From: Geminicoccaceae bacterium
Lineage (GTDB): Bacteria; Pseudomonadota; Alphaproteobacteria; Geminicoccales; Geminicoccaceae
Assembly (NCBI GenBank): GCA_028279345.1
Contig: JANQNY010000027.1
Location: 1-64,000 of the forward strand
Direction: 5' to 3'
Length of the DNA stretch: 64,000 nucleotides
Shown here: positions 9,036 to 61,473 of the stretch, one piece after another
Position numbering within the stretch: position 1 is the first letter of the stretch
How the letters are laid out: every line of letters starts with the position of its first letter
Notes under the pieces: model-generated
Databases searched by the model: none
The model's input: the letters and a program-made list of their open reading frames with translations, nothing else
What the model was told of the DNA's origin: nothing
Translations under genes and position numbers: made by a program

Positions 9036-9093
9036 GCTGTCCTCCCTAAGCACATCCGCGTTGTGCGGAATTGACGCTAACACCTGGGTCTGG

Positions 9094-9123
9094 ATTGTCG
9101 AACCGCAAATGATTTTGCGTCAA
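9094..9123 (-). promoter_or_regulatory. Candidate glpV promoter
   Basis: On the minus strand TTGACG (9118-9123) is followed after 18 bases by GACAAT (9094-9099). This is a reasonable sigma-70-like pair about 60 bases before the glpV start codon. The two TTCATATGAA boxes lie just upstream of the -35 on this strand. Read by eye only. Confidence 0.4.
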
Positions 9124-9138
9124 GCGAAAAAGCGTGTT

Positions 9139-9170
9139 TTCATATGAAGGGCTATAGAGTTCATATGAAC
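9139..9170. promoter_or_regulatory. Tandem palindromic operator between glpV and glpR
   Basis: Two identical TTCATATGAA palindromes lie at 9139-9148 and 9160-9169, exactly 21 bp apart (two helical turns). The second extends to the perfect 12-mer GTTCATATGAAC. They sit just before the glpR start at 9175. DeoR-family repressors bind repeated palindromes, so these are the natural candidate GlpR sites controlling both glpR-glpD and the glpV operon. The binding assignment is inference. Confidence 0.6.
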
Positions 9171-9174
9171 GCGC

Positions 9175-9987
9175 ATGCTTGCACCCGACCGCGCCGGTGA
9201 TCTGAGCCAGCGACAAGCCTCCATCATGGCGCGTGCGCGCGTCGCGGGGCGCGTCGCCGTCGACGAGCTGGCGACCACCTTCGGCGTAACCACGCAAACG
9301 ATCCGGCGTGATCTCAACGATCTCAGCCGGGCGGGACTGCTCGCCCGCGTGCATGGCGGCGCCGCCCTCGCCAACACGGTCTCCAACGTCGACTACACCG
9401 TGCGCCGAGCCATCGCCCACGACGGCAAGCGCGCGATCGGCGAACGCGTCGCGGCGATGCTCCCCGAAGGCTGCTCGCTGATCCTCAATATCGGCACGAC
9501 CACCGAAAACGTGGCGCGGGCGATCGGCAGCAAGCGCGACCTCGTCGTGGTCACCAACAACATCCACATCGCGTACATCCTCGCCGCCGCACCGCTCAAG
9601 GAGCTGTTTCTCGCTGGCGGCGTGGTCCGTCAGAGTGACGGCGCCATCATCGGGGACGAAGCCGTCGCGTTCATCCGTCAGTTCAAGGTCGACTACGCCG
9701 TCATCGGTGCTTCCGCCCTGGATGCCGACGGGGCCATCATGGACTTCGACATGCGCGAGGTCGCCGTCGCCCGCGCCATCGTGCAGAGCGCGCGTCGCGT
9801 CTTGCTGGCGGTCGACCACTCCAAGTTCGAGCGAACGGCACCAGTGCGGATCTGCGCGTTGGCGGAGATCGACGTGTTCGTGACCGACCGACCGCCGCCA
9901 CGGGCTTTTGCCGAGGCCTGCGCCGCAGCGAATGTCGCGATCGAGATTGCGGGTGGCGCTACGACTGAGGGGGACACCAGTGACTGA
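9175..9987 (+). CDS. glpR: DeoR-family transcriptional repressor GlpR
   Basis: Regulator of glycerol use, 270 residues. An N-terminal DeoR helix-turn-helix lies at about residues 10-60, with recognition-helix region VTTQTIRRDLNDLSR. The C-terminal sugar-phosphate sensing (DeoRC) domain has the family end motif AVDHSKFER. The family senses glycerol-3-phosphate in E. coli. It is transcribed away from the glycerol transporter operon and overlaps glpD by 8 bp. The overlapping palindromes upstream suggest autorepression together with control of glpV. Confidence 0.87.
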   Translation: MLAPDRAGDLSQRQASIMARARVAGRVAVDELATTFGVTTQTIRRDLNDLSRAGLLARVHGGAALANTVSNVDYTVRRAIAHDGKRAIGERVAAMLPEGCSLILNIGTTTENVARAIGSKRDLVVVTNNIHIAYILAAAPLKELFLAGGVVRQSDGAIIGDEAVAFIRQFKVDYAVIGASALDADGAIMDFDMREVAVARAIVQSARRVLLAVDHSKFERTAPVRICALAEIDVFVTDRPPPRAFAEACAAANVAIEIAGGATTEGDTSD

Positions 9988-44402: not shown

Positions 44403-46109
44403 ATGATCGACTGGTTCGTCGACACGCTGCAGACCTATCCGCAGCTCGCCGTCTTCCTGGCGCTCGGCATCGGCTTCGTGATCGGGCCGCTCAAGCTCCT
44501 GGGTTTCAATCTTGGCAACGTCACGGCGACGCTCCTCGCGGGCGTGGCGATCGGCCAGCTCGGGATTCAGATCTCCGCGGACGTCAAGAACACCTTCTTC
44601 ATCCTGTTCCTGTTCGCGGTCGGCTTTGGTGTCGGGCCCCAGTTCGTGAGAGGTCTCTCGAGCGACGGCCCCAAGCAGATCGCGTTCGCACTTACAGTGC
44701 TGTCGCTGTGCCTCGTGGTGCCTTGGGCGTGCGCAGTCTTCGCTGGTCTGCCGCTCGGCTATGGCGCCGGGCTCTACGCCGGCTCGCAGACCATCTCGGC
44801 CGCGATCGGTGTCGCCACGGACCAGATCGGCTCGCTGGGTCTGCCAGCCGCGGAGGCGCAGACCTACGCCAACCAGGTGCCCATCGCCTACGCCGTGACG
44901 TACATCTTCGGCACGATCGGCTCGGGCATCATCCTCGCGCAGATCGGCCCACGGCTCATCGGCGTCGATCTGCCGGCCGCATGCCGCGAGTACGAGGCGA
45001 AGCTGGGCGGTGGGGTCGGGTCGACGACCGAGCCCGGCATCTCGTCGGCCTATCATCGCTTTGCCATGCGTGCCTACGTCGTCGATGAGGCAAGTGGACT
45101 TACGGGACAGCCGATCGGTCAACTGATGCCCGATGTCCGGCTGTTCGTCGAACGCGTGCGCCGCGGCGACCAGGTCTTCGAGGCGGATCGCGACACCGTG
45201 CTACAGCCCGGCGACATCGTCGCCGTATCTGGTCAGCGGCACCAGCTCGTCCAGCAGCTGGAGCCGAAGCTCACCGAGGTTGATGATGAGGCGTTGCTCA
45301 ACGCCGAAGCCGAAGTGCTCGATACCTTCGTTACCAACAAGGCGCTCGCCGGCAAAACGATGCGCGAGCTGGGCGCCGAGCCTTGGGCCCGGGGCGTCTA
45401 CGCCCGGAAGATCGTGCGCTCTCTGGTGGAGGTCCCGGTTCTACCCGAAACCACGATCGAGCGCGGCGACATCGTCACGCTCGTCGGGCGCCGAGTCCAC
45501 GTCGAAAATGCCGTCAAGGCTCTGGGATTTGCCGACCGCCCGGTCGAAACCACCGACATTGCCTATGTCGGTTGGGGGATTTTCCTGGGCGGCATGATCG
45601 GCGCACTGACCCTGGTCGTCGAGAACGTGCCACTCAGCCTGTCGACCTCCGGCGGCGCGCTGCTCGCGGGCCTGCTGCTCGGGTGGTTGCGTGCGGTTCA
45701 CCCGGCCTTCGGGCGCATTCCGGCGCCGGCGCTCTGGGTGATGAACACGCTCGGGCTCAACGTGTTCATCGCGGTCGTCGGCATCGGTGCGGGACCCGGC
45801 TTCGTCGCAGGCATCGCCGAGGTCGGCGTCTCTCTGTTTCTCTGGGGAGCTGCCGCCACCTCGGTGCCGATGGTCGCATCCGTGTTCATCGGCCGCTACA
45901 TCTTCCGCTTCCACCCCGCCATTCTGTTCGGCGCCTGTGCCGGGGTGCGGACCACCACCGCGGCGCTGGGCATGATCCAGGAGGCCGCCAAGAGCAAGGT
46001 GCCGGCCTTGGGCTATGGCATGCCCTACGCGGTCGGCAACACACTGTTGACCATCTTCGGCCTCGTCATCGTGCTGCTCCTGGCGCCGTCGGGCGGTAGC
46101 GGTCCGTAG
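44403..46109 (+). CDS. aspT: Aspartate:alanine antiporter (AspT, AAE family)
   Basis: Inner-membrane exchanger of the AAE family, 568 residues. About five helices lie at each end around a large cytoplasmic region (about residues 180-385) with two TrkA-C-like (RCK_C) domains. Typical segments are FAVGFGVGPQFVRGL and GACAGVRTTTAALGMIQEAA. In Tetragenococcus it exchanges aspartate(-) for alanine(0), giving a proton-motive cycle with aspartate decarboxylation. The decarboxylase gene follows 34 bp downstream, which makes this assignment firm. Confidence 0.88.
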   Translation: MIDWFVDTLQTYPQLAVFLALGIGFVIGPLKLLGFNLGNVTATLLAGVAIGQLGIQISADVKNTFFILFLFAVGFGVGPQFVRGLSSDGPKQIAFALTVLSLCLVVPWACAVFAGLPLGYGAGLYAGSQTISAAIGVATDQIGSLGLPAAEAQTYANQVPIAYAVTYIFGTIGSGIILAQIGPRLIGVDLPAACREYEAKLGGGVGSTTEPGISSAYHRFAMRAYVVDEASGLTGQPIGQLMPDVRLFVERVRRGDQVFEADRDTVLQPGDIVAVSGQRHQLVQQLEPKLTEVDDEALLNAEAEVLDTFVTNKALAGKTMRELGAEPWARGVYARKIVRSLVEVPVLPETTIERGDIVTLVGRRVHVENAVKALGFADRPVETTDIAYVGWGIFLGGMIGALTLVVENVPLSLSTSGGALLAGLLLGWLRAVHPAFGRIPAPALWVMNTLGLNVFIAVVGIGAGPGFVAGIAEVGVSLFLWGAAATSVPMVASVFIGRYIFRFHPAILFGACAGVRTTTAALGMIQEAAKSKVPALGYGMPYAVGNTLLTIFGLVIVLLLAPSGGSGP

Positions 46110-46143
46110 CGAGGGCCACCGAGCCTGCTCAAGGGAGGAGTCC

Positions 46144-47775
46144 ATGGACGCCGTCTTCAACTACCACCGCTTCGAAGCGCTGAGCCCCTTCCAGATCAAG
46201 GACGAGCTGATCAAGCTTGCCCGCGCAGAGGCCGACAAGAGTGCGGCCATGTTCCTGAACGCCGGCCGCGGCAACCCGAACTGGATCGCGGTCAAAGCGC
46301 GCGAGGCCTTCTTCCTCTTGGGCCAGTTCGCGCTCACCGAAGCCAGACGCACGATGGACGACGAGGACGCCGGGCTCGCCGGGATGCCGCCGCGGGACGG
46401 CTGCCACGGCCGGCTCAAGAAGTGGCTCGAGCAACGTCAGGGCGATGCGGCAGCATCGGGTGCGGCGACCCTAGGCGCGGTCGTCGACTTCGCGATCGAC
46501 AAGTTCGGCTTCGAGCCCGACGCCTTCGTCCATGAGCTGACGGACTCCGTGATCGGCGACAACTATCCGGTGCCGGACCGTTGCCTGGTCCACAACGAGG
46601 CGATCGTCCACGATTACCTGATGTGGGCGATGTGCGCGGGGCACCGCCCGAGCGAGCGGTTCGACCTCTTTCCGACCGAAGGTGGCACCGCCGCGATGTG
46701 CTACATCTTCAAGACACTCAAGAACCAGCGCCTGCTCAACGCGGGCGACACGATCGCGCTCGCCACCCCGATCTTCACGCCCTACCTGGAGCTGCCCGAG
46801 CTCGAAGACTACAGCCTGCACCATATTGATGTCAGCGCGGAGGAGGAGGACCAGTTCCAGCTCTCCGATGCTGACTTCGAAGCTCTGGAAGACCCGAAGG
46901 TTCGCGCCCTCTTCCTCGTCAATCCGGGCAACCCTTCGTCGGTAGCCCTGCACCCCGATACGATCGGCAGACTGGTCGAGCTCGTCAGAACCAAGCGCCC
47001 GGACCTGATGATCTTGACCGACGACGTGTATGGCACGTTCGTTCTGAACTTCGAGTCGCTGCTGGGTCACCTGCCGCGCAACACGATCGGTGTCTATTCG
47101 TTCTCCAAGTATTTCGGCTGCACGGGCTGGCGCCTCGGGGTTATTGCCGTGGCTCAGGAGAACGTTTTCGACGAGATGATCCAGAAGCATCCGGAGGAGA
47201 CGGCGCAAGCCATTGATCGGCGCTACGTCGCGTTGGCACCGAACCCACGCGCGCTGAAGTTCATCGATCGCATGGTCGCGGACAGCCGGGACGTCGCGCT
47301 CAACCACACCGCCGGGCTGTCGCTGCCGCAACAGGTCATGATGATGCTGTTCGCGCTCGTCGAGATGATGGACGAGGCGAAGACCTATCAGAAGGCCTGC
47401 ATGGCGATCTGCGATCGCCGCTTCCGCAACCTTGTCGACGGCATGGGCATCGAGGCGCACCCTGGCCCCTACTACGACCGCTATTACGGCCTGATCGACT
47501 TCGAGTACTGGCTCAAGAAGTATGTCGGTGAGGACGTGGTCCACTGGATCAAGGCCAACGTTCACCCGCTCGACATCCCGTTCAAGCTCGCCCAGGACCA
47601 CGGCATCGTGCTGCTCAACGGCGGAGGCTTCGACGCCCCCAACTGGTCGGCGCGCGTCTCGTTCGCCAATCTCGACGACCCGGCTTACGCGAACATCGGC
47701 CGCGCGGTGCGTGCGGTGGCCCGCGGCTATGTCCAGGCCTATCGGGCTTCGAAGGGTGAGCCGGTGCAGCCCTGA
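46144..47775 (+). CDS. asdA: Aspartate 4-decarboxylase / aspartate aminotransferase (PLP)
   Basis: PLP fold-type I enzyme that beta-decarboxylates aspartate to alanine and CO2, 543 residues, the large size of AsdA/AspD. The PLP Lys is in VYSFSKYFGCTGWRLG; LTDDVYGTF holds the pyridine-ring Asp. GGGAGGAG precedes ATG 46144. With AspT it forms a cycle in which aspartate enters, a cytoplasmic proton is consumed and alanine leaves. Confidence 0.9.
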   Translation: MDAVFNYHRFEALSPFQIKDELIKLARAEADKSAAMFLNAGRGNPNWIAVKAREAFFLLGQFALTEARRTMDDEDAGLAGMPPRDGCHGRLKKWLEQRQGDAAASGAATLGAVVDFAIDKFGFEPDAFVHELTDSVIGDNYPVPDRCLVHNEAIVHDYLMWAMCAGHRPSERFDLFPTEGGTAAMCYIFKTLKNQRLLNAGDTIALATPIFTPYLELPELEDYSLHHIDVSAEEEDQFQLSDADFEALEDPKVRALFLVNPGNPSSVALHPDTIGRLVELVRTKRPDLMILTDDVYGTFVLNFESLLGHLPRNTIGVYSFSKYFGCTGWRLGVIAVAQENVFDEMIQKHPEETAQAIDRRYVALAPNPRALKFIDRMVADSRDVALNHTAGLSLPQQVMMMLFALVEMMDEAKTYQKACMAICDRRFRNLVDGMGIEAHPGPYYDRYYGLIDFEYWLKKYVGEDVVHWIKANVHPLDIPFKLAQDHGIVLLNGGGFDAPNWSARVSFANLDDPAYANIGRAVRAVARGYVQAYRASKGEPVQP

Positions 47776-48103: not shown

Positions 48104-48883
48104 TCATCGATAGCCAACCAGTACCTCGTAGACTGGAGCACCCAGCCCCGCAAAAAGGCAGATGTGAGCCGCGAAAGCCTCTCCATTGGTCGCTAGAACA
48201 ATAAAGTGGTCGCTCCGATTGATCAGAGAGCCTCTTAGAGACGACCCACCTACGAACTCCGTAATTCGCGCGTCAGGAAGCGCCCCCCGAATAATGTCGG
48301 GAAGGACTGGGCGAAATCCACCATAGCCAAGCTGGGAGACTGCAAAACAATGGGCGATCTTGCCCAGTTGCAGCATCACAATCGTGATATTCATCCTACG
48401 CGATACGCTAATTTGCGATGCACCTACACGGTCGCCGTATCGCTTAAAGCTATCTTTCTTGTAAAGAAAATGCGGAATTTCAGTCAAATTCGCGCCGACC
48501 TCGCCCGTAATTGCGCTGGGGCGAGACAAAAATCTCGGGAATATGGCAGATTTCGGATAGTAAGTGACTGGAACTTCAGCAGTGCTCCACTTGCGAGCGC
48601 TATCCGATATTTGGAGAGTAAGCCTCTCTGGCCTCCGCTTCTTGGGGCGCTTGGAACGGGTCTCGAGAATGAGACGAAGAGGCCCGTAAATCGTCCGCAT
48701 GAAGGGCTGCTCAATGCGACGATTGATCGTCGCCGCGCAGTCCCGGCAGCTTGCCTCGGGCAGCATCCAGTTGCCACCAATCCCTTCGGGCACGATGTGT
48801 TCGATGGTCAGCTGACGGTCGGAGCGACCGCAATAGATGCAGGCGCCGACCGGCGGAAAGACAGATTTCTTGCCGAAATTCAC
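48104..48883 (-). CDS. HNH endonuclease domain protein
   Basis: A 259-residue protein whose N-terminus has the HNH_5-type layout: CIYC (zinc), TIEHIVPEGIGG (His motif), LPEASCRDC (second zinc pair), about residues 15-55. The remaining 200 residues are not recognised. Base composition is clearly lower in GC (about half in several 60-base lines) and codon use differs from neighbours, pointing to recent transfer. It could be a defence nuclease, a homing-type nuclease or part of a mobile element. No partner gene is adjacent. Confidence 0.72.
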   Translation of the reverse strand: MNFGKKSVFPPVGACIYCGRSDRQLTIEHIVPEGIGGNWMLPEASCRDCAATINRRIEQPFMRTIYGPLRLILETRSKRPKKRRPERLTLQISDSARKWSTAEVPVTYYPKSAIFPRFLSRPSAITGEVGANLTEIPHFLYKKDSFKRYGDRVGASQISVSRRMNITIVMLQLGKIAHCFAVSQLGYGGFRPVLPDIIRGALPDARITEFVGGSSLRGSLINRSDHFIVLATNGEAFAAHICLFAGLGAPVYEVLVGYR

Positions 48884-49991: not shown

Positions 49992-52388
49992 ATGCACAGA
50001 TTGACAACTTGGCCCACAGCGCCGCAGGCAGTGTTTCGGTCAGTTGTTATGACGCGGAGTGATTTTCTACTTTTGGTGTGGCTGATCACCTGCGCGCACG
50101 CGCCGTTCGGCAACGCGCGTGCTCAGCAGGATCAGAGCGAAACCTACATCGTCGTCCTCGAGGAAGGGCAGACGCTGCGTGACGTCGCAGCTGAGCACCT
50201 CGGGGACCCCGATCTATGGCCGGAACTCCTGCTCTCCAGCGGCTTGCAATCGATTACCGAGGCCGTCCCCGGCACCGCGCTGGTGATCCCCGCAACGATC
50301 GTCGCTAGGGCCAACCGCGCGATCGAGCAGGCACTCGCGACGATCCAAGCCGCCAATCGTGAGGGCGCGCGCCTGTTCGCACCGGAAGAGATCAGTCTGG
50401 CGATCGACCGGCACGAGCAGGCCCTGACGATGCGTCAGGCGGGCGCTTGGGAGGAGGCGGCGCAACAGGCTGATGACGCACATCTGTTCGCGAGCCTGGC
50501 GCTCGATCTCGCGACGGCTGCGCGCGATGCTACTGCCGAGGCGATTTTGAGCGACCGCGAAGGTTCGGTCGAAGGACGCCGCACCGAAGAGCTCGATTGG
50601 TCCGCGCGCGATCTGAATGCAATCCTGCTTGAGCAGGAGACGGTCCGGACGCTGTCCCGCTCCTCCGCCCAGATCACCTTCACAGACGACAGCCGACTGC
50701 GGCTGAACGCCAACTCGCAAGCTGTCATCGAGCACATGCGGAGAGACCCGCTCACCCGTCGCGAGGAGGCGACGGTGAGCCTCGTCGAGGGCGACTTCTA
50801 CGCGATCCTCAGCGACAACACGGCCCGGAGCGAGTTCGCCGTCGAAGTCGCGGAGGTGGAGACGGAGCTCGATTCGCGCAGCTTCTGGATGCGCCGCGAC
50901 GACACCGGCTCCAAGTTCACCAACTATGACGTCGAGGGCGTGCTGACCGTGTCGGCGAACGGCGGCAGCGTCGCGCTGGGGGAGAACGAAGGTACGCTCG
51001 TGCGCCGCGGCCGGCCGCCGAGCCCGAAGCTCGCCGTACTGACCGCACCGAACCTCGCGAGCCCCGCCGACGACGAGATCATCTTCGTCGCCGATGTGCC
51101 ACTCGCCTGGGAGGTCGTCGATGGCGCCGCAGGCTACTGGCTGGAGGTGGCGGCCGACCCCGGCTTCAACCGCATGACCCAATCGCGCTGGGGTCTGCTG
51201 GAGCCGCTGCACACGATCGAGGGACTCGACGTGGGTGTCCACTACTGGCGGACGGCCGCGCTGGACAATTTCGGGCTGCCCGGGGGGCGCAGCGAGGCCC
51301 GGCGCTTCAATGTCCGGATCGACCAAGCACCACCGTTCTTGGTGCTGCGAGCGCCGGTCGAGGGGGCCGTTGTCAGGGCTGGTCCGGTCACCCTCCGCGG
51401 CGAGACGGAGATCGGCGCCACCGTCGCCTTCGACGGACAACCCGTCGAGACCGACGACGCTGGAAGGTTCGAGCTCTCGGTTACCGCGCGCCCAGGCCTC
51501 AACGATGTATCCGTCGATGCCCGCGATACGGCCGGCAACGTCACGCGGCGAAGCCGGAGCTTCACCTTCGCGCCCGACGCCGGCGTAGCGATCCATTTCG
51601 ACGAGGCCATCCCACGGCGTGGACCCCGGCGCTTTGTGGCCGGATCGAAGACCATTTCAGTTGCCGGCCAAGGCCTGCCCGACGCGCTCGTCGAGGTATC
51701 GGCGGAGGACGGCGCTCGCCGTGCTGCGACCTACAGCAACACCGTCGGCGCCTTCAACCTGAACGTGCCGATACGTGGCGATGAAGAGAATTTCTCCATC
51801 GTCATGACGGACCCCACGGGCCTCCAGGTGGGCGATGGGTTCACGGCCGTCATCGACCGTGAGCCGCCGAGCATCGTTCTCGAGCCGCCGGTCCCCGCAG
51901 TCACCGCCGTCGAATGGTTGCCGCTTCGCGGCCGCGCGGACGGCGCTGTCCGGCTTAGCATCAACGGCGACGAGGCGAACCTCGTCGACGGGACGTTCGA
52001 TGAAACGCTGACGCTGCAGCTCGGTACGAACGACATCAAGATGGGCGCGATGGACCTCGTCGGGAATGTGCGCGTCGAGACCCACCAGGTCGTGCTCGAT
52101 CAGGAACCTCCGGAGATCGTGAGCCACGCGCTCTCGGCTACGCGCGCCGCGCCCGGCAGCACCGTCTCGATCGAAGTCGTCGCCCGCGACCATTCCGGCT
52201 TGAGGAAGGCAGCGCCGTTCGCTTTGTCCGCCGGCGAATCGTCCGTAACGGGCTACCTCGAGTTCTTGCCGGCGACCGGAAGCTACCGGGGTACCGTCGT
52301 ATTGCCCGCGGACGCCAACGGCCGTCTGGCGCTCGACGAGGTGGAGGTAGAGGATTACGCCGGCAACAGAACGAGGCGACGCTTTTAG
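49992..52388 (+). CDS. Exported LysM-FecR-Ig-like envelope protein
   Basis: A 798-residue protein, first of a three-gene operon. GGGGGAG (49978-49984) at seven bases favours ATG 49992; ATG 50049 is an alternative start closer to the signal peptide (FLLLVWLITCAHA, cleavage near NARAQ). Domains in order: LysM-like at about 50-95 (YIVVLEEGQTLRDVAAEHLG), an Ala/Glu-rich helical stretch about 105-200, a FecR-like domain about 215-340 (VRTLSRSSAQITFTDDSRL, EGDFYAILSDNT, VEGVLTVSANGGSVAL), then at least four bacterial Ig/fibronectin-like segments (TAGNVTRRSRSF, DLVGNVRVE, DYAGNRTRR). Probably periplasmic and bound to peptidoglycan. FecR-like proteins of this type are often encoded beside class III cyclases. 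Next gene 24 bp later. Confidence 0.78.
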   Translation: MHRLTTWPTAPQAVFRSVVMTRSDFLLLVWLITCAHAPFGNARAQQDQSETYIVVLEEGQTLRDVAAEHLGDPDLWPELLLSSGLQSITEAVPGTALVIPATIVARANRAIEQALATIQAANREGARLFAPEEISLAIDRHEQALTMRQAGAWEEAAQQADDAHLFASLALDLATAARDATAEAILSDREGSVEGRRTEELDWSARDLNAILLEQETVRTLSRSSAQITFTDDSRLRLNANSQAVIEHMRRDPLTRREEATVSLVEGDFYAILSDNTARSEFAVEVAEVETELDSRSFWMRRDDTGSKFTNYDVEGVLTVSANGGSVALGENEGTLVRRGRPPSPKLAVLTAPNLASPADDEIIFVADVPLAWEVVDGAAGYWLEVAADPGFNRMTQSRWGLLEPLHTIEGLDVGVHYWRTAALDNFGLPGGRSEARRFNVRIDQAPPFLVLRAPVEGAVVRAGPVTLRGETEIGATVAFDGQPVETDDAGRFELSVTARPGLNDVSVDARDTAGNVTRRSRSFTFAPDAGVAIHFDEAIPRRGPRRFVAGSKTISVAGQGLPDALVEVSAEDGARRAATYSNTVGAFNLNVPIRGDEENFSIVMTDPTGLQVGDGFTAVIDREPPSIVLEPPVPAVTAVEWLPLRGRADGAVRLSINGDEANLVDGTFDETLTLQLGTNDIKMGAMDLVGNVRVETHQVVLDQEPPEIVSHALSATRAAPGSTVSIEVVARDHSGLRKAAPFALSAGESSVTGYLEFLPATGSYRGTVVLPADANGRLALDEVEVEDYAGNRTRRRF

Positions 52389-52411
52389 AGCCGACGCCCG
52401 GGAGGGACACA

Positions 52412-55400
52412 ATGCAGCAAATGGCGCTCGGGCTTGCCGCTCTGGTGGCGCTGGCTATGTCGCAGCCGACCTCGCTTGCGAGCGCCCAGGCGTTCGACGA
52501 GCCGCTGCTGATGGTCTATGGGGCCGACGCTGCGACCGCCGAGGGCGATTTCGACCACCGCGCGGCCATCTACATCAGCGTGCCGGCCGATCTGTCCGAC
52601 CACCTGTTCTTGCGCGTGTTCGATGCCGACACCAGCGGCGACCATGATTTGCTCTATGGCCCCGGGCCCGATAGCCGTGTTCGTTATCGGCTGCTCGGCG
52701 GCGAGGGAGCCGCCGCGGTTCGCGCCGCGCCCGATGGGCTTGCCGACGATGCCGGGAGCGAGCCGGACGGCACCGTCCTCGCCGAGCGCGTGGTGGGCGA
52801 CGATGCCGCCTACGATTCACGCTGGACGACCGTCGCGCGTTTTGCCGTCGATGCCGGCGAACTCGTCGGCGACCGGCGCCTCTTCCGGCTCGCCATCGAG
52901 GGCCTGGACGGCGATGACGGCAACCTCTTCGATGTAGCTGTCAGCACGCGCGAGCACCGTAACGTGGCGCCCGCTGGTCTCGAGCTCCTCGACTACGCGC
53001 CAACCGTCCGCATCCCCGACATGCAGCGCCTGACCGAACTGCGCTTCGAGCTGCCGTCCGCCGGGCAGACGCTGCGCGTGCGGAACTTCGATGCCGCCCA
53101 AGGCGACATCGCGTTGACGACGGCGACCCGAACCGTGCCGCTCGAGGCCTCGGGCCAGAACGAGTGGCGGGAAAGCCAGGTCGAGCTGCTCCCGGGGGAG
53201 CAGGGCGTCGCCGCGGTCACGGTCAGGCGCGGCAACGAGATTCCCAACGACGTCACCGTCATGGTCTCCGACGACGAAGGCAGGCCGCTCCCGTTCCTTC
53301 TGCCGCCCCGTGCGTGGACGCCGAACAATCGCCCCGTCCCAGGTGTCGCGGCGACCGTGCTCGCCGACTGCCGAGCCGTGGCGTTGGACGCCTCGGCGTC
53401 GAGCGACCCGGACGGTGATGCTCTCGGCTACATTTGGCGCTTCGACTATGGCGGGGTGGCAACCGGGCCTGTCGTCGTGCATCGCTACGCCGAACCGGGC
53501 GTCTCGACCCCGACATTGTTGATCACCGACAGTTCCGGACAGGTCGGCGCCAGCACGCTCGTCGAGCTGCTGGTCGACGTTCCGGAAGCGCCCGTCGCCG
53601 ACGCCGGCACGGATCTCGTCGCGGCGCCAGGCGTGCCCGTCACCTTCGATGGGACCGGCTCGCGGGACGGCTCCAACGCAATCGAGCGCTTCATCTGGGA
53701 TTTCAAGGACGGCAGCGTGGGCGAGGGCCCCGCTCCGACACACGTCTTCGAGACGCCTGGGACCTACGACGTTGCGCTCCGGGTCGAGACCGCAGCGCCC
53801 GATGATGCTTGCGGCTTCGCCGTCGACCACGTTCGCGTCCACGTCAATGCCGGTCCGGTGGCGGTGCTCAGCGGCCCTGAACGCGTCGCCGCAGGCGATC
53901 AGGTGGCGTTCGGCGCAGCGTCCAGCTACGACCCCGATGGGACGATCGTCGCCTATCGATGGGACTTCGGTGATGGCACGCGCGGCACGGCTGCTGCTGT
54001 CGAGCACGTGTACGCGGCGCCTGGCATGTACCCGGTACGGCTGACCGTCGAGGACGATTCCGGCTCGGCCAATTCGGTGAGCGAGGCTACCACAGTCGTG
54101 GCGGTGAACGCTCCGCCCTTGCCGGTCGCCGGCGAGGATCGCACGCTCGCCATCGGTGAGCTATCGGTCTTCGATGCGAGCGGTTCCAGCGACGCGGACG
54201 GCGGCGAGCTTCAGTACGTCTGGGACTTCGGTGACGGCGGTGGCGCTCATGGCGAGCGCGTGACCTACGCCTATCGCACCCCCGGCCTCTACGACGTGAC
54301 GCTCACGGTCGAGGACGACTGGGGCACGACAACGAGCCAGGCTAGTGACGCGCTACGCGTGGTCGTCAATGCGCCACCGGTGGCGGAGGCGGGCGACGAC
54401 CTGGTGGTCACATCGAGCGAAGTGGCCTTCGATGGCACCGGCTCGTTCGACGAAGACGGCCGCATCACGACCTATGCGTGGAGCTTCGGCGACGGCAGCA
54501 CCGGCGAAGGAGCGACGCCTGTGCACGTCTATCGCAAGTCCGGCGTCTACTCGGTCGAACTCACGGTCACCGACGACAGTGGCACCGTGCGCAACAGCGC
54601 GACGGATCGCCTGCAGGTGATCGTCAACCGAACACCGATTGCGGATGCCGGGCCGGACCTTGTCGCCGCCCCTGGCGAAGAGCTGCTGTTCGATGCTTCG
54701 GGATCGATCGATCCTGACGGCGACCTGAGTACCTATCTGTGGGATTTCCGTGACGGGAACACGGCCGAAGGTGTGCGCGTGCGCCATGCCTTCGAGCAAC
54801 CTGGCATCTATCTGGTGCGGCTTGTCGTGCAGGACGAGACGGGCCAGCTCGGAGCAACGGCGAGCGACGGAGCGAGGGTGGTCGTCAACGCACCGCCGGT
54901 CGCGGACGCCGGGCCCGATATCCGTGCCGCGCCAGGCGACACCGTAATCCTGAACGCCGGCAGTTCGTTCGATCCCGACGGCACCATCGCCACCTATCGC
55001 TGGGACCTCGGTGACGAGCCCGGACCCGAACTCGGCACGCAGATCACGCGCCGCTACAGCACGCCGGGCGTCCGCGCCGCTCGGCTAACCGTGATCGACG
55101 ACAGCGGCGCCCGCAACGCCGTCGCACAGGACGACGTCGTCATTCGCATCAATCATCCGCCGGTTGCTGCTGCCGGCCCCGATGTCGTGACGAACAGCAA
55201 CACCGTCACGTTTGATGGCTCCGCATCAGCCGACGCCGACGGCGACGCCTTGGTCTTTCGCTGGGACTTCGGCGACGGCAGTCCACCCCGGCTGGGCATT
55301 CGGCCGACGCACACCTATGCCGAGGGCGGGACGTTTCCGGTCGTGCTCTCCGTCGACGATGGCACCGGCCTCGCCAATGGCACCGACACGACGGCGATCA

Positions 55401-57268
55401 CGGTCAGCATCGACCGTCCGCCCATCGCCGATGCCGGCGGCAACAAGGACGTCTGCGCCGGCGATATCGTCGTGTTCGACGGCTCCGGCTCCGCTGATCC
55501 CGAGGGCGGCCTGCTGCGCTATGCCTGGGACTTCGGCGACGGCGGCACTGAGGATATCGTCAACCCGACGCGGGTCTTCGATCGGGGTGGTCTCTTTCCC
55601 GTGACCCTCGAGGTCGAGGACGAGTCCGGTTTTCCCGCCAATCGACATCGGGATCGGCTCGTGGTCCGCGTCAACGAATCGCCCCTCGCCGATGCCGGTC
55701 CCGACCAGACCGTCTGCGTCGGCAGCCAGGTGCGCTTCGACGGCACCGGGTCGAGCGACCCGGACGGTGTCGTCGACCGCTTCTCCTGGGATTTCGGCGA
55801 TGGCAAGACCGGCGGCGGAGACAGGCCCGTCCACGTCTTCACCGAGCCCGGCGAGCACCGGGTGCTGCTCACCATCACCGGCAGTCAGGCGGGGCAGTGC
55901 AGCAACACCGCCACCGACGAGGCGGTCGTGCGGGTACTCGAGGCGCCGGTAGCGCGGATCGCCGCTCCGACGCTCGCCGGCGTCGGCATGCCCGTACGCT
56001 TCGACGCCTCGGCTTCGACGGGCGCATCGGGACCACTCGAGGCGTTCCGCTGGGACTTTGGCGACGGCACGACCGCGGATGGAGCCGTCGTCGAGCACCG
56101 CTTCCCAGAGCCCGGCCGGCAGCTCGTGACCCTCACGGTCGAGGGGCCGTCGGAGGCGGCGGATTGCGGGATGATCACCGCGCAGCACGCCATCACCATC
56201 AACGCGGCGCCGATCGCTGACGCCGGTGGCGACCGAAGTGTCGCCATCGACGAGGTCCTGGTCTACGATGCTTCCAAGTCATTCGATCCCGATGGTGCGA
56301 TCGTCGACTATCGATGGGACTTCGGCGACGGCAACACGGCGACCGGCTTGCTCGTGCGTCACCAATATGCCGAAGGTGGTAGCTACTCGCTGACCTTGAC
56401 CGTCATGGACGACAGCGGTCTGGTCAACTCCAGCGCCACGGACACCGTCACGGTCATGGTCAACCACAGCCCCCATCCTGTGATCGAGGGACCGGCGGTG
56501 GCCTGCGTCGACGAAGCGCTGAGCTTCGACGGGCGCAACTCCAGCGACGTCGAAGGTGATGTCGGCGCACTCGCCTGGACCTTCGGTGACGGCTCCAGCG
56601 CTTCCGGTCCCCAGGTCTCGCACAGCTTCGCCGACCCCGGCCTATACGACGTCACCCTCGCCGTCGACGACGGCTCCGGGCTCAAGAACGCGCGCGCGCA
56701 ACGGACGCGGCCCATCCAAATCAACCGGCCGCCGGTGGCGGTGGCGGGCGGCGACCAGCTCGTCTGCCCCGGTGATCCCGTTCGGTTCGACGCCGGTGCG
56801 TCCATCGACTGGGACGGGGAGCTCGTCGGCTATCGCTGGGATCTCGGTGATGGCACGGTACGCGAGGGTGCCTCGGTCGAGCACCGCTACGTCCAGCCCG
56901 GCAGCTATGAGGTCGTCCTCGAGGTCACCGACGGGTCGGGCTCGGCGTGTGCCACCGCGAGCGACACCGTGCGGGTGCTGGTCAACGCTGCTCCGGTGGC
57001 GCAGGCCGGTGGGGATCGCCGGGGCCTCGTCGGTGGTGCCCACGACCGCGTTGCGTTTGACGCGTCCGCCTCGAGCGACCCCGACGGGCAGCCGCTCGGT
57101 TTCGTGTGGGAATTCGGCGACGGGGTCTCGGTGGCCGGCGAGCAGGTCCGCTATGGCTACGCAGCCGCAGGCAGCTACGCCGGCACGCTTACCGTCGACG
57201 ACGGGACCGGCCTCGCCTGCGGCGTCGCCGTGGACAGTTTCGAGGTCGTCGTCGATGAGCGCTCCTAG
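52412..57268 (+). CDS. Exported giant PKD-repeat protein (15 PKD domains)
   Basis: A 1618-residue protein with signal peptide (MQQMALGLAALVALAMSQ... cleavage near SLASAQA). Residues about 28-300 form a unique domain rich in Asp and beta strands. From about 310 to the end I count 15 tandem PKD repeats of about 87 residues, each with the pattern (F/L)D(A/G)(S/T)xSxDxDG followed by YxWDFGDG. No transmembrane anchor, sorting signal or catalytic motif is visible at the C-terminus. PKD repeats are usually extracellular binding or spacer modules. The first gene lies 24 bp before and the cyclase 10 bp after, so all three are one operon. Confidence 0.85.
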   Translation: MQQMALGLAALVALAMSQPTSLASAQAFDEPLLMVYGADAATAEGDFDHRAAIYISVPADLSDHLFLRVFDADTSGDHDLLYGPGPDSRVRYRLLGGEGAAAVRAAPDGLADDAGSEPDGTVLAERVVGDDAAYDSRWTTVARFAVDAGELVGDRRLFRLAIEGLDGDDGNLFDVAVSTREHRNVAPAGLELLDYAPTVRIPDMQRLTELRFELPSAGQTLRVRNFDAAQGDIALTTATRTVPLEASGQNEWRESQVELLPGEQGVAAVTVRRGNEIPNDVTVMVSDDEGRPLPFLLPPRAWTPNNRPVPGVAATVLADCRAVALDASASSDPDGDALGYIWRFDYGGVATGPVVVHRYAEPGVSTPTLLITDSSGQVGASTLVELLVDVPEAPVADAGTDLVAAPGVPVTFDGTGSRDGSNAIERFIWDFKDGSVGEGPAPTHVFETPGTYDVALRVETAAPDDACGFAVDHVRVHVNAGPVAVLSGPERVAAGDQVAFGAASSYDPDGTIVAYRWDFGDGTRGTAAAVEHVYAAPGMYPVRLTVEDDSGSANSVSEATTVVAVNAPPLPVAGEDRTLAIGELSVFDASGSSDADGGELQYVWDFGDGGGAHGERVTYAYRTPGLYDVTLTVEDDWGTTTSQASDALRVVVNAPPVAEAGDDLVVTSSEVAFDGTGSFDEDGRITTYAWSFGDGSTGEGATPVHVYRKSGVYSVELTVTDDSGTVRNSATDRLQVIVNRTPIADAGPDLVAAPGEELLFDASGSIDPDGDLSTYLWDFRDGNTAEGVRVRHAFEQPGIYLVRLVVQDETGQLGATASDGARVVVNAPPVADAGPDIRAAPGDTVILNAGSSFDPDGTIATYRWDLGDEPGPELGTQITRRYSTPGVRAARLTVIDDSGARNAVAQDDVVIRINHPPVAAAGPDVVTNSNTVTFDGSASADADGDALVFRWDFGDGSPPRLGIRPTHTYAEGGTFPVVLSVDDGTGLANGTDTTAITVSIDRPPIADAGGNKDVCAGDIVVFDGSGSADPEGGLLRYAWDFGDGGTEDIVNPTRVFDRGGLFPVTLEVEDESGFPANRHRDRLVVRVNESPLADAGPDQTVCVGSQVRFDGTGSSDPDGVVDRFSWDFGDGKTGGGDRPVHVFTEPGEHRVLLTITGSQAGQCSNTATDEAVVRVLEAPVARIAAPTLAGVGMPVRFDASASTGASGPLEAFRWDFGDGTTADGAVVEHRFPEPGRQLVTLTVEGPSEAADCGMITAQHAITINAAPIADAGGDRSVAIDEVLVYDASKSFDPDGAIVDYRWDFGDGNTATGLLVRHQYAEGGSYSLTLTVMDDSGLVNSSATDTVTVMVNHSPHPVIEGPAVACVDEALSFDGRNSSDVEGDVGALAWTFGDGSSASGPQVSHSFADPGLYDVTLAVDDGSGLKNARAQRTRPIQINRPPVAVAGGDQLVCPGDPVRFDAGASIDWDGELVGYRWDLGDGTVREGASVEHRYVQPGSYEVVLEVTDGSGSACATASDTVRVLVNAAPVAQAGGDRRGLVGGAHDRVAFDASASSDPDGQPLGFVWEFGDGVSVAGEQVRYGYAAAGSYAGTLTVDDGTGLACGVAVDSFEVVVDERS

Positions 57269-57277
57269 GGGCGGACG

Positions 57278-59065
57278 ATGTTGCGGCTGACGCTGCGGCG
57301 GAAGCTACTCCTGTTCGCCGTCGTCATCGCCGTCCTACCGCTGCTTGTCGCCGGCCGAAGCATGATCAGGATCGCTCAGGATGAGCTCAAGAGCTCCGCC
57401 AACGAGCAACTCGTCACGACCGCGAGCGAGATCGTTCGCGAGATCAACGACCTCTACGAACGCACCTGGCTCGCGCCACTGCTCCTGATCCGCAACGCCG
57501 TCGATGGCGAGATGCTGGGCGTGCAGGAGAAGATCGCGCTCCTGACCCTGGGCATCGCCGACCTCCCAGACATCGTCGCGCTGCAGATCACGGTCGAGGG
57601 GGCGCCGCTGCCGGTTGTCGTCACGCAGGACCGTTTCTCGCGGCATCTCGAAGCGAGCGGCCTCGTGCCCCTCGATGTCTTGCGTGTGCCACCGGATCGG
57701 ATCGCCGCACTGCGAGAAAGCGGCAACGTCTACGCGGGCGACGTGACGCGGATCGCCGCAACCGGCGACTGGCTCGCCACTATCGTCTTGCCTCTCGACA
57801 CGATGCTTGCCGGCAGCCGCGCCACCCTGTCCGCGCGCATCGATCTCTACGGCCTCCAGCGGCTCCTGCGCGAACACCCGTTTGCCACCACCGGCGAAGT
57901 CACCCTGGTCGACGCCGCGGGCAGCACAGTGTTGGATGCACAGACCGAAGACCGTGCCGATTATCCAATCGTTGAAGCTGCCGTTGGGATGCTGGCTGGC
58001 GGCCCACGGCTCGTGAGCGTCGAACCCTATGTCCGGCCGGACGGCGACGTCATGTTGGGTGCGTTCGGCTTTCCAAGGCCCTTCGATTGGGCGGTCCTCG
58101 TCGAGAAGAGCCAGGACGACGCGTATCTGGCGATCACGCGGATGACCGACAACCTGATCGTCTGGAGCCTCGCAGGCCTTGCTGCCGCCGTCGCTGGAGC
58201 AGCACTGCTCGCGCTCCGGATGAGCGGGCCGATCCTCGAGATTGAGCGTGTTGCCGCCCGCGTCGAGACCGGTGATTTCTCTGCCAGGGTGGTCCAAGGC
58301 TTAAGATTGCGCGATGAGATCGGCGATCTTGCTCGGCGCATCAACCAGATGGTGGTCGGCCTCGGCGAGCGCTTCCAGCTCGAGAAGTTCGTCTCGGGTG
58401 AGACGGTGGAAGCGATCCGCGGATCGACCTTCGAGGGCGTGAAGCTCGGCGGCGAGCGTCGCGAGGTGACCATCCTCTTCTGCGACATTCGCGGCTACAC
58501 CGCTTTCGCTGAAAAGAACCCTCCAGAGACCGTGGTCGAGGTCCTGAACTTCCACTTCCAGCACCTGACTGACCTGGTGGCGACCCATCAAGGCGACATC
58601 GACAAGTTCGTGGGTGACCAGATCCTCGCCGTCTTCCAGGGGGAGACGATGGCGCTGGACGCCGTTCGTTGCGCGCTCGCGATGCAGGCGAAGATGGCCG
58701 AGCTCGGGCAAGAGCGGCCTGACTGGCATCTTGCCGTCGGCATCGGGATCAACACGGGCGAAGTGACGATGGGCGCTATGGGAAGCGACCGGCGCATGGA
58801 CTTCACCGTCCTTGGCGATGCGGTAAACCTCGCCGCGCGGCTCTGCAGCCATGCCGATCGCGGCCAGACATTGATCTCCCGCACCACGCAGCTGGCCGTT
58901 GCCGACGCTTCTGATCTGGCCACAAAGCGGCTGAACGCCATCAGCGTCAAGGGCAAGCGCGAGACCGTTACCGTCTACCAGGTCGTAACGCAGCCACGAA
59001 GCCTGGCGGATGTCTCGTTGGCACGCCGGCAAATGCGATCGTCGAGGCCGGCCGGCGACAGATGA
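57278..59065 (+). CDS. Membrane class III adenylate/guanylate cyclase with periplasmic sensor and HAMP
   Basis: A 595-residue cyclase. TM1 is at about 10-27, a periplasmic sensor of about 260 residues (Cache-like layout; not CHASE2 by eye) follows, TM2 is at about 291-313, HAMP about 313-365, and the catalytic domain about 390-575. Catalytic residues appear complete: metal Asp in FCDIRGYTAF (about 400-409), substrate Lys and second metal Asp in DKFVGD (about 441-446), VLGDAVNLAAR with the transition-state Asn and Arg (about 511-521). It should make cAMP (or cGMP) in the cytoplasm in response to an envelope signal. It starts 9 bp after the PKD gene. Confidence 0.86.
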   Translation: MLRLTLRRKLLLFAVVIAVLPLLVAGRSMIRIAQDELKSSANEQLVTTASEIVREINDLYERTWLAPLLLIRNAVDGEMLGVQEKIALLTLGIADLPDIVALQITVEGAPLPVVVTQDRFSRHLEASGLVPLDVLRVPPDRIAALRESGNVYAGDVTRIAATGDWLATIVLPLDTMLAGSRATLSARIDLYGLQRLLREHPFATTGEVTLVDAAGSTVLDAQTEDRADYPIVEAAVGMLAGGPRLVSVEPYVRPDGDVMLGAFGFPRPFDWAVLVEKSQDDAYLAITRMTDNLIVWSLAGLAAAVAGAALLALRMSGPILEIERVAARVETGDFSARVVQGLRLRDEIGDLARRINQMVVGLGERFQLEKFVSGETVEAIRGSTFEGVKLGGERREVTILFCDIRGYTAFAEKNPPETVVEVLNFHFQHLTDLVATHQGDIDKFVGDQILAVFQGETMALDAVRCALAMQAKMAELGQERPDWHLAVGIGINTGEVTMGAMGSDRRMDFTVLGDAVNLAARLCSHADRGQTLISRTTQLAVADASDLATKRLNAISVKGKRETVTVYQVVTQPRSLADVSLARRQMRSSRPAGDR

Positions 59066-59955: not shown

Positions 59956-61272
59956 TTAACTGAAGCCGATCTCGAACCGCTCCTCCATGGCCATCCGAAC
60001 CATTTCGCCGAACTGAGCGGCGACCTGAGCAAGCTCGTCTTGCTCGTCGGGCGTCGGAAGAGCGTAATCCGCGCTGCGGGCGAAGTTGAGCGCATAAGGC
60101 GCGTAGTCACGGGTCAATCCCTGCGGATGCCGCTCCGGCAGCGGAGTCGAGGAGATCTTCTCGTGGGAAGACAGATACAAGCTGTAGAGAGGTGACAAGA
60201 ACACATTGAGCCGAATGACCCGTGGTCGATCACCCACGGTGTCGGGTGGAATGAATGGCTGGAAAATGTTCTCTCGCTGCGGACTTATGCTCGCCGCGAT
60301 CCGTTGGCTCAGCGGGAGTTTAAAGATGGCTGGTGTGCTCTGCGGGTCTCGTTGGTTGATGCCGAAGGCGTCGAGCGCCGCGCTCGCGTCACTGAAGCGG
60401 CCCATGGCCACATGCGCCCCTCGGTCGGAGGACGCGAGCTTCAGGACGAGATTGGGCCATCGTTCATCGGTGGTCTCAGCCGCAATTATGGGCTCTCGGT
60501 AAGTCGGGACATAGGCGAGCTTGCTGAAGCGACCTGGTTCACGATCAATAATCGCGCGTGTCCAGTTGGCGAACGACCACTTGTTGTGGAGGAAGTCGAC
60601 GGAATGCGCTGAGGGTCGCCAGCTCGAAAACAGATGGTACGCCGTTCCTGGCTCTGGCGCGCGCGGCAGTTCGGGCAGCCAATCTTCGGCGTTCCGAACG
60701 CCCGACGCCGGCACCACCTCAATGCGATAACGTGTGGCCGCGAGCGCGAACTCGTCCATGGCTTGTTCGGGCCAACCGGCGCGTTTCATAAGCACGAGGC
60801 GTCGAAATCCGTGCGCCTTCGCCTGCTCCACCAAAGCGACCAACAACGGATCGAGGTCCGTCTCGAAAAGGGCGCGACGCTCCGGTTTCAGGGCCGGGTT
60901 AGTGTTGAGCTCAAGGAGATAGTAGCGCTCGCCGTTACGGATCAGATCGAGGCCCATCACCAAGCCGACCAACGTATTGCGGCTCCGGTCAAACCAGTAG
61001 GCCGGCTGCGCCGGATCCTGAGGTTGTTTGGCCTGCAACATCAAGGACGCGCTCACGGGGCGACCCGGACAACTCAGCCGTGCGCCCGATCGCACAAACT
61101 CGCAGCCCTCGTGGCCTAGCAGCGCGGCGGCCCCTGCAGCACGTGCCAGAAAGAGCCTGAGGGACCGGTCGCCGTGCCGAGCTGCTGCGTCGATGGCGCG
61201 TTGCACGCGTCTGCGAAAGCGCAGTCGACGCTGTATCGACTCGACCTCAGAAGCGCTTGCAGTTGGTCCCAT
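59956..61272 (-). CDS. ATP-grasp-like protein (possible peptide/amide ligase), unusual domain order
   Basis: About 438 residues from ATG 61272; earlier in-frame starts (GTG 61284, TTG 61323) are possible. The second half looks like an ATP-grasp fold: VDFLHNKWSFANW (linker before the fold), NLVLKLASSDRGAHV (strand-Lys plus Gly loop) and IFQPFIPPDTVGDRPRVIRLN. The usual C-terminal Glu-x-Asn metal motif is absent there, but MGLDLIRNGERYYLLELNTNPAL, which looks like that motif, stands in the N-terminal third. Substrate unknown. It is divergent from the ATP-grasp gene at 61605 across an AT-rich region. Confidence 0.55.
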   Translation of the reverse strand: MGPTASASEVESIQRRLRFRRRVQRAIDAAARHGDRSLRLFLARAAGAAALLGHEGCEFVRSGARLSCPGRPVSASLMLQAKQPQDPAQPAYWFDRSRNTLVGLVMGLDLIRNGERYYLLELNTNPALKPERRALFETDLDPLLVALVEQAKAHGFRRLVLMKRAGWPEQAMDEFALAATRYRIEVVPASGVRNAEDWLPELPRAPEPGTAYHLFSSWRPSAHSVDFLHNKWSFANWTRAIIDREPGRFSKLAYVPTYREPIIAAETTDERWPNLVLKLASSDRGAHVAMGRFSDASAALDAFGINQRDPQSTPAIFKLPLSQRIAASISPQRENIFQPFIPPDTVGDRPRVIRLNVFLSPLYSLYLSSHEKISSTPLPERHPQGLTRDYAPYALNFARSADYALPTPDEQDELAQVAAQFGEMVRMAMEERFEIGFS

Positions 61273-61473
61273 CGGGCAATTCACTTCTCTACGCCGGGCT
61301 CGGCAGAACGCCCACGTCAGCAACCTTGGCTTCTAGCACGAAGTAGATCGGACGCGCTTCATCGCGGCGACGATTGCACCGTACCCGGATAATTGTTGCT
61401 CAGACTAGGGGTATCGCCGCTTCGTGTAGAGGTATTTTGGTTGAATATATATCAGAGAAGTTTATATTTTCAG

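Follow-up and report, generated by a model that had tools for sequence, protein, structure and literature searches.

The gene trio examined here is best explained as belonging to a so far undescribed family of signalling systems that span the envelope and have three parts. It lies on the forward strand of the 64,000-nucleotide stretch of Geminicoccaceae DNA that was analysed (the window), and it encodes an exported LysM-like/FecR/Ig protein, an exported PKD-repeat protein and a membrane receptor. The FecR and PKD proteins probably make up an envelope-bound input module that is read by the double Cache (dCache) sensor of the receptor. Bacterial receptors whose stimulus is still to be found are common. 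For this receptor family the genome data name likely protein partners, which remain linked to the sensor through changes of output, and the input thus becomes directly testable.

Three genes and their products

Gene 1, for which orthologues were aligned, ends at 52388 and can begin at TTG 49977, ATG 49992 or ATG 50049, giving a product of about 779-803 amino acids depending on the start. It is followed by gene 2 (52412..57268; 1618 aa) and gene 3 (57278..59065; 595 aa). All three reading frames are on the + strand, with gaps of 23 bp and 9 bp between them, as the initial annotation had described. A promoter and terminator scan returned no sigma-70-like promoter, and terminator-like sites at about chance level; the reading frames adjoining the trio include no sigma factor gene.

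The most natural signal peptide of gene 1 is the one that begins at ATG 50049 (MTRSDFLLLVWLITCAHAPFGNARA), so the true start may lie 57 bp inside the ATG 49992 start given at first. Pfam finds FecR, Glucodextran_B and Big_6 domains in this protein, in keeping with its first description as an exported FecR-Ig protein. The FecR domain itself (50640..50912, +; residues 217-307; PF04773, E 1.1e-9) is present in all 33 homologues. The LysM-like segment (50139..50297, +; residues about 50-102 of the ATG-49992 form) was placed through homologues: Pfam LysM does not match the window protein, but it matches 12 of the 33 aligned homologues (best E 2.4e-7), so the earlier label "LysM" is right by homology. 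Such a domain would hold the FecR protein at the peptidoglycan.

The product of gene 2 carries 15 PKD stretches (Pfam PKD_4; 53330..57256, +; residues 307-1615), exactly the number first reported for this exported protein. They follow a conserved N-terminal all-beta domain (52490..53329, +) with a good AlphaFold model and no close PDB or NCBIfam match; the fold search gave only weak beta-sandwich matches, some of them carbohydrate-binding modules, at a TM-score of about 0.2. The 15 repeats stay in register from Alphaproteobacteria to Ignavibacteria, and each resembles the repeat at the same position in an orthologue more than it resembles the others (58% vs. 40%, in the comparison to L010). 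Ten conserved cysteines (53369..57220, +), through their joint losses and their spacing in homologues, point to five disulfide staples between neighbouring repeats, predicted as C320-C467, C1015-C1163, C1102-C1252, C1365-C1513 and C1452-C1603, which would join repeats 1-2, 9-10, 10-11, 13-14 and 14-15, respectively. This pairing is the unique best among 945 matchings, its five pairs are each spaced by 147-151 residues, and additional PKD repeats are inserted only in the unstapled middle. Judged by these comparisons of homologues, the PKD protein acts like a rod of fixed length, probably semi-rigid. A PKD domain is roughly 4 nm long, and at that length the rod would be longer than the periplasm is wide, which counts against our best explanation.

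Gene 3 encodes a receptor of the order TM1-sensor-TM2-HAMP-cyclase, which agrees with its first reading as a complete class III cyclase with a large periplasmic sensor. No Pfam sensor family scores above its cut-off in the sensor region; dCache_1 has no match in the window protein, and its best score in a relative is 34.3 bits against a curated cut-off of 45. Structure prediction of the periplasmic domain alone, which the initial annotation had proposed, resulted in a dCache fold: the modelled stretch (57350..58171, +; residues 25-298, sensor plus the start of TM2) has a pLDDT of 87.8 and folds as a double PAS-like domain behind a long N-terminal helix. Because the top PDB fold matches of the model are all dCache domains (TlpA, Mlp24, TlpC and PctC; E 6e-11 to 7e-10, TM about 0.6-0.7), the sensor is, on this modelling, a divergent dCache domain. 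The earlier remark that it is not evidently CHASE2 also holds, CHASE2 being found neither in the window receptor (P0010) nor in its relatives, in a scan in which the loci L013 and L014 match strongly. Domains of the dCache type usually bind small molecules, and the motif R-x-W-[FY] defines the amino-acid-binding receptors among them. None of the sensors searched carries that motif, and this allows for a protein as the input.

The sensor is followed by a HAMP domain (58205..58360, +; PF00672, E 8e-10) and by the class III adenylate cyclase catalytic domain (58460..58981, +; Pfam Guanylate_cyc, E 1.9e-26). The metal-binding Asp 403 and 447 are invariant in four orthologues, and Lys443 and Thr510 align with the same substrate-defining residues of Pseudomonas aeruginosa CyaB (3r5g). 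These active-site residues favour an adenylate over a guanylate cyclase, so that cAMP would be the product; a guanylate cyclase is less likely, as the alignment matches the CyaB Lys/Thr pair.

Conservation of the trio and exchange of the receptor output

The FecR-PKD-cyclase order recurs in three further genomes of the family, in other genera, and in practically all complete loci found in Alphaproteobacteria, often with 4-bp overlaps; the same three genes stand in the same order on an independently annotated Skermanella plasmid. Carriers that can be cultured include Geminicoccus, Roseibium aggregatum, Sulfitobacter mediterraneus and Shimia haliotis. The gene set is thus not due to chance, and the multi-phylum survey rules out a chance or local gene cluster. 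The initial annotation would have counted a trio not kept in relatives as a refutation; this check did not refute it, as the trio is conserved as a unit in dozens of Alphaproteobacteria. Finding these loci by contig profile search needed an alignment as query, a single FecR protein having found nothing. Flanking genes are not shared across loci, none of the window's flanks being kept, so the trio itself is the unit. No fourth gene is conserved; the few common flanks resemble transporters, along with one synteny block within Rhodobacteraceae.

In a sample of 249 genomes of Rhodobacteraceae, exactly the same 15 have the PKD N-terminal domain, the sensor and the FecR protein; the trio is present in the 13 of those loci that were examined, one being cut by a contig end. 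Across 247 genomes of the phylum Bacteroidota, the PKD protein is found in all five that have the sensor. These distributions support the PKD protein as an obligatory member of a conserved functional unit. Distances in the FecR and sensor trees are correlated in Alphaproteobacteria at r = 0.954, with a maximum of 0.33 on shuffling the labels. Tree correlation and co-occurrence can both partly reflect joint vertical or horizontal transfer of the operon.

The same sensor, with FecR and PKD, persists in Ignavibacteria/Bacteroidota and other distant lineages, where a histidine kinase or a SpoIIE-type phosphatase serves as the output. A SpoIIE phosphatase ends the receptor in L051 and L061, a histidine kinase in L065, L067, L118, L119, L120, L139 and L141, and a cyclase in L117. 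Since sensor, FecR and PKD are kept while the output differs, the linkage follows the sensor rather than the cyclase, and comparison of the loci shows the parts of the trio to have been inherited together in at least two phyla while the receptor output was exchanged. The proposed conversion of the signal into cAMP or cGMP would therefore apply only to the alphaproteobacterial version of the system, as the set also occurs with kinase or SpoIIE outputs.

The arrangement varies in a few loci, which weighs against our best explanation. Ca. Tariuqbacter has its PKD gene on a separate contig; in the Bacteroidota locus L118 the kinase directly adjoins the PKD gene, with no FecR gene between; and the genomes G737 and G733 also have sensor kinases (L141 and L139, respectively) that adjoin response regulators, the short stretch examined there containing neither FecR nor PKD. 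No dCache domain is recognisable in the Balneola-like kinases that accompany FecR and PKD, and an hhalign comparison of their sensors with that of the window gave no significant homology (probability 1%, E 0.04).

Relation to known systems

SiaA of P. aeruginosa is a Cache-HAMP-PP2C phosphatase, and we know of no FecR or PKD partners for it, for CyaB of the same species or for the cyanobacterial adenylate cyclase. The SpoIIE-phosphatase version of the receptor resembles SiaA in overall architecture, but L061 gives only a partial match to NCBIfam NF038263, at 70 bits, far below the 700-bit cut-off. With CyaB (3r5g) and the cyanobacterial enzyme (2w01) the window receptor has the catalytic domain in common, and with 3r5g also the Lys/Thr pair; both PDB constructs, however, comprise the catalytic domain only. 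The FecA-FecR-FecI system likewise has a FecR domain, whereas the trio lacks genes for a sigma factor and a TonB receptor, and its FecR protein is exported and carries LysM-like and Ig domains.

FecR/LysM proteins beside CHASE2 receptors have been published (PMC5192318, PMC9239204). The BiofilmReg operon of Burkholderia comprises a response regulator, a LysM-FecR protein (COG4254/PA4035), a CHASE2 histidine kinase and a DUF4136 protein (PMC5192318). An exported LysM-FecR protein stands there directly beside a membrane receptor with an extracytoplasmic sensor, comparable to the exported LysM-like/FecR protein and the receptor of the trio, and the partner genes vary; unlike the trio, BiofilmReg has CHASE2 in place of dCache, no PKD protein, a shorter FecR gene (1362 bp) and kinase output only. 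In Campylobacterota, CHASE2 adenylate cyclases are clustered with a FecR protein, a TPR protein and a phosphodiesterase (PMC9239204). There too a FecR-domain protein accompanies a membrane adenylate cyclase, but the sensor is CHASE2, the PKD rod is missing and the phosphodiesterase and TPR genes are extra. Closer to the window, L013 and L014 of the same family hold pairs of a LysM/FecR protein and a CHASE2-PAS-GGDEF-EAL receptor; the FecR protein, weakly homologous to that of the window, lies immediately 5' of the receptor gene, but the sensor is CHASE2, the output is cyclic-di-GMP and there is no PKD gene. The trio shares with CHASE2-FecR pairs an exported FecR protein near the receptor, here in the same operon and with the PKD gene between. 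None of the open-access papers searched describes a FecR-PKD-dCache receptor trio, which agrees with the earlier statement that no described pathway with exactly these parts was known.

Possible input to the receptor

The occurrence of FecR-CHASE2 pairs in the literature cited above, and in the same family (L013, L014), might suggest an ordinary pair of that type with an incidental PKD gene. This is highly improbable, being contradicted by the CHASE2 scan and by the dCache fold search, and a PKD protein present in every complete alphaproteobacterial locus, with its repeats conserved in register, is hardly incidental. It is rather unlikely, too, that FecR and PKD form an assembly on the surface, structural or adhesive, with a job of its own, for which the receptor serves as a checkpoint on completion or damage. 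This was the idea of the initial annotation, and it would make the rod the monitored object and not a sensor arm. Large size and Ig and PKD domains are typical of surface proteins, the fixed length and the staples suit a structural part, and the receptor is the sole membrane-signalling part, which in the Rhodobacteraceae sampled always comes with the pair. Yet the trio has no conserved neighbour that encodes a secretion system, an anchor or another structural part, and if the structure had an independent job one would expect to find it now and then without its monitor, whereas the distribution is strictly all-or-none.

A still more doubtful reading has the dCache domain sensing a small molecule (a polysaccharide or peptidoglycan fragment, for example) that FecR and PKD deliver, concentrate or bind, or has the two as merely co-regulated envelope proteins. 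Every match of the sensor model in the PDB is indeed a ligand-binding dCache domain, and the all-beta PKD N-terminal domain has carbohydrate-binding modules among its fold matches. Those matches are weak, however, with the TM-score of about 0.2 given above, and the search for a known dCache ligand motif, that for amino acids, found none; nor would mere co-regulation explain why FecR and PKD are kept with the sensor across the change of output, or their perfect co-occurrence.

In the protein-input reading that we prefer, the FecR protein and the semi-rigid PKD rod would form the extracytoplasmic input, as a co-receptor or through their state of assembly. A changed state or engagement of that input would reach the dCache domain by protein contact and pass through HAMP to the cyclase, with cAMP being made. 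More tentatively, the stapled rod of fixed length, tied to the cell wall, might act mechanically or sterically on the receptor as a gauge of envelope spacing or integrity. Such a gauge would be a modular system over several phyla, driving cAMP, phosphorelay or phosphatase outputs, and would give bacteria from soil, sea and hosts a new means of tying second-messenger control, phosphorelays or phosphatases to the condition of the cell wall. Clear experimental predictions follow from the strict co-occurrence of the three parts, the constant number of repeats and the pairing of the cysteines.

Occurrence of the trio

Three genes that the initial annotation had proposed as a single operon are borne out in coordinates, strand and spacing: lying on the + strand and separated by 23 and 9 bp, they encode an exported LysM-like/FecR/Ig protein (49977/49992-52388; Pfam FecR, Glucodextran_B and Big_6), a PKD-repeat protein (52412-57268; 15 PKD stretches) and a receptor (57278-59065) in which the Pfam scan recognised HAMP and a class III cyclase domain and no sensor family. 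FecR orthologues occur in 5/31 genomes of the window's family (its own included), representing 4 genera; this family takes in the genomes of the Geminicoccus loci, since the contig and locus of genome G040 match comparison locus L030. The order FecR, PKD, cyclase is identical in all three family genomes first examined. A scan of GTDB genomes with the FecR alignment returned 39 loci, and the trio is found in nearly all complete alphaproteobacterial loci (Rhodobacteraceae, Roseibium, Inquilinus, Bauldia, Mesorhizobium and others), where 4-bp overlaps between the genes are common, as well as in the independently annotated record of a Skermanella plasmid. Conservation in relatives, which the initial annotation had named as a test, is thus seen in all three settings. 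Flanking genes show no conservation across the loci compared, those of the window matching none of the other loci. Two trio copies (loci L040 and L055) come from a record titled Mycobacterium sp. KBS0706; both group with Inquilinus, and the label on that genome is probably wrong.

The PKD N-terminal domain, the sensor domain and the FecR protein were each searched separately in an even sample of 249 Rhodobacteraceae genomes. Each is present in 15, and the 15 are identical; all 13 of these loci that were fetched contain the trio, one interrupted by a contig end. In the phylum containing the Ignavibacteria the sensor occurs in 5/247 genomes, and in all five the PKD protein is present too. On comparative evidence, the coupling of FecR protein, PKD protein and receptor is well supported.

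The putative PKD rod and the dCache sensor

Geminicoccaceae-type, rhodobacterial and ignavibacterial PKD proteins have 15 repeats; counts of 14 most likely reflect one weak repeat missed, because the protein lengths are equal. Repeats of the window's protein and that of locus L010 share 57.7% identity on the diagonal and 40.2% off it; against ignavibacterial L067 the values are 41.9% and 35.5%, with best matches in register for 7/15. Position by position, then, the repeats are orthologous. The window's protein has exactly ten cysteines, all ten conserved, placed near position 14 in one repeat and near position 75 in the one that follows, 147-151 residues apart. They are lost pairwise in L049, L053, L116, L118 and L121, and of 945 possible pairings the predicted set of five is the single best, a result that becomes a tie with two others when two divergent phosphatase-type proteins are omitted. 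Ignavibacterial members have one further pair, the sixth, spanning repeats 8 and 9; proteins that exceed 15 repeats (17, 19 or 20) carry the additional ones only in the cysteine-free middle. We infer a rod that is stapled at its ends and has a plain spacer between them. Its N-terminal domain (model pLDDT 89.5) gave no close structural relative in a fold search and no NCBIfam match. Tandem PKD pairs occur in Hyphomicrobiales loci L029, L035, L045, L046, L048 and L060, the first copy being short (6-7 repeats and, in those checked, the N-terminal cysteine pair alone) and the second, where complete, long (16-20 repeats).

An AlphaFold model of receptor residues 25-298, built from 34 sequences (mean pLDDT 87.8), matches dCache ligand-binding domains of chemoreceptors and kinases in the PDB. 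Pfam dCache_1 gives matches in relatives alone, none of them reaching its cut-off, and no sensor searched has the R-x-W-[FY] motif that marks amino-acid dCache receptors. The matches and the missing motif together place the modelled sensor in the dCache fold, outside the known amino-acid group.

Outputs and the proposed mechanism

Outside the Alphaproteobacteria the receptors keep sensor and HAMP and differ in output: some end in a SpoIIE-type phosphatase (L051, L061), others in a histidine kinase (L065, L067, L118, L119, L120 and, as read from sequence, L139 and L141, where a response regulator gene adjoins). The cyclase version is present in one genome of the Bacteroidota phylum (G737, locus L117). 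The sensor-domain tree sets phosphatase, kinase and cyclase forms apart, so the output has changed at least twice; since FecR and PKD proteins were retained with the sensor throughout, their role most likely concerns input. In L119 a response regulator-SpoIIE phosphatase gene (8509-9669, - strand) directly adjoins the system's sensor kinase and is a second route to phosphatase output.

The most economical general reading is that the LysM-like/FecR/Ig protein and the PKD rod would form an envelope input module read by the dCache receptor, whose output in the window's system would be cAMP; we give it rather better than an even chance. We can only infer direct contact of the parts, the nature of the stimulus, and which role falls to the rod, that of detector or of the thing detected. 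A variant in which the system acts as an assembly checkpoint seems to us unlikely. Marginally less probable still is a small-molecule sensor with FecR and PKD as accessory proteins.

More distant sets in another clade of the Bacteroidota phylum (L124-L133) combine a kinase with FecR and PKD proteins of 585 and 1572 aa, both clear homologues of the trio's; the kinase sensors show no recognisable relationship to the trio sensor. TrkA-like and TrkH-like genes, so identified from sequence starts and not by scanning, come next in this strongly conserved block, and a link to potassium or turgor control is possible.

Known relatives and genomic surroundings

In the Burkholderia BiofilmReg operon a LysM-FecR protein lies beside a CHASE2 receptor (PMC5192318). 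The initial annotation's remark that FecR-like proteins beside CHASE2 cyclases are a known theme agrees with Campylobacterota CHASE2 cyclase clusters in which FecR is encoded (PMC9239204). Within the window's family, too, FecR adjoins CHASE2-GGDEF-EAL receptors (L013, L014). All three share the FecR theme with the trio, which differs from each in its sensor, its PKD rod and its range of outputs. No description of the PKD-dCache branch was found in the open-access papers searched, subscription literature and preprints lying outside their range, and the branch looks undescribed.

Class III cyclase domains occur at 18 places in the window's genome, which points to elaborate cAMP signalling and is a rich repertoire for 4.4 Mb. 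Downstream of the trio, a 455-aa ORF (59956-61323, - strand) has no Pfam match at E 0.001. Upstream, at 44403-47775 (+ strand), an Aspartate-alanine exchanger type permease (Asp-Al_Ex, TrkA_C) precedes a 543-aa protein of class I/II aminotransferase fold, probably an aspartate 4-decarboxylase; the two look like the pair of an aspartate-alanine proton-motive cycle. Between the aminotransferase gene and the trio sits a gene for an HNH_5 endonuclease-like protein (48107-48883, - strand).
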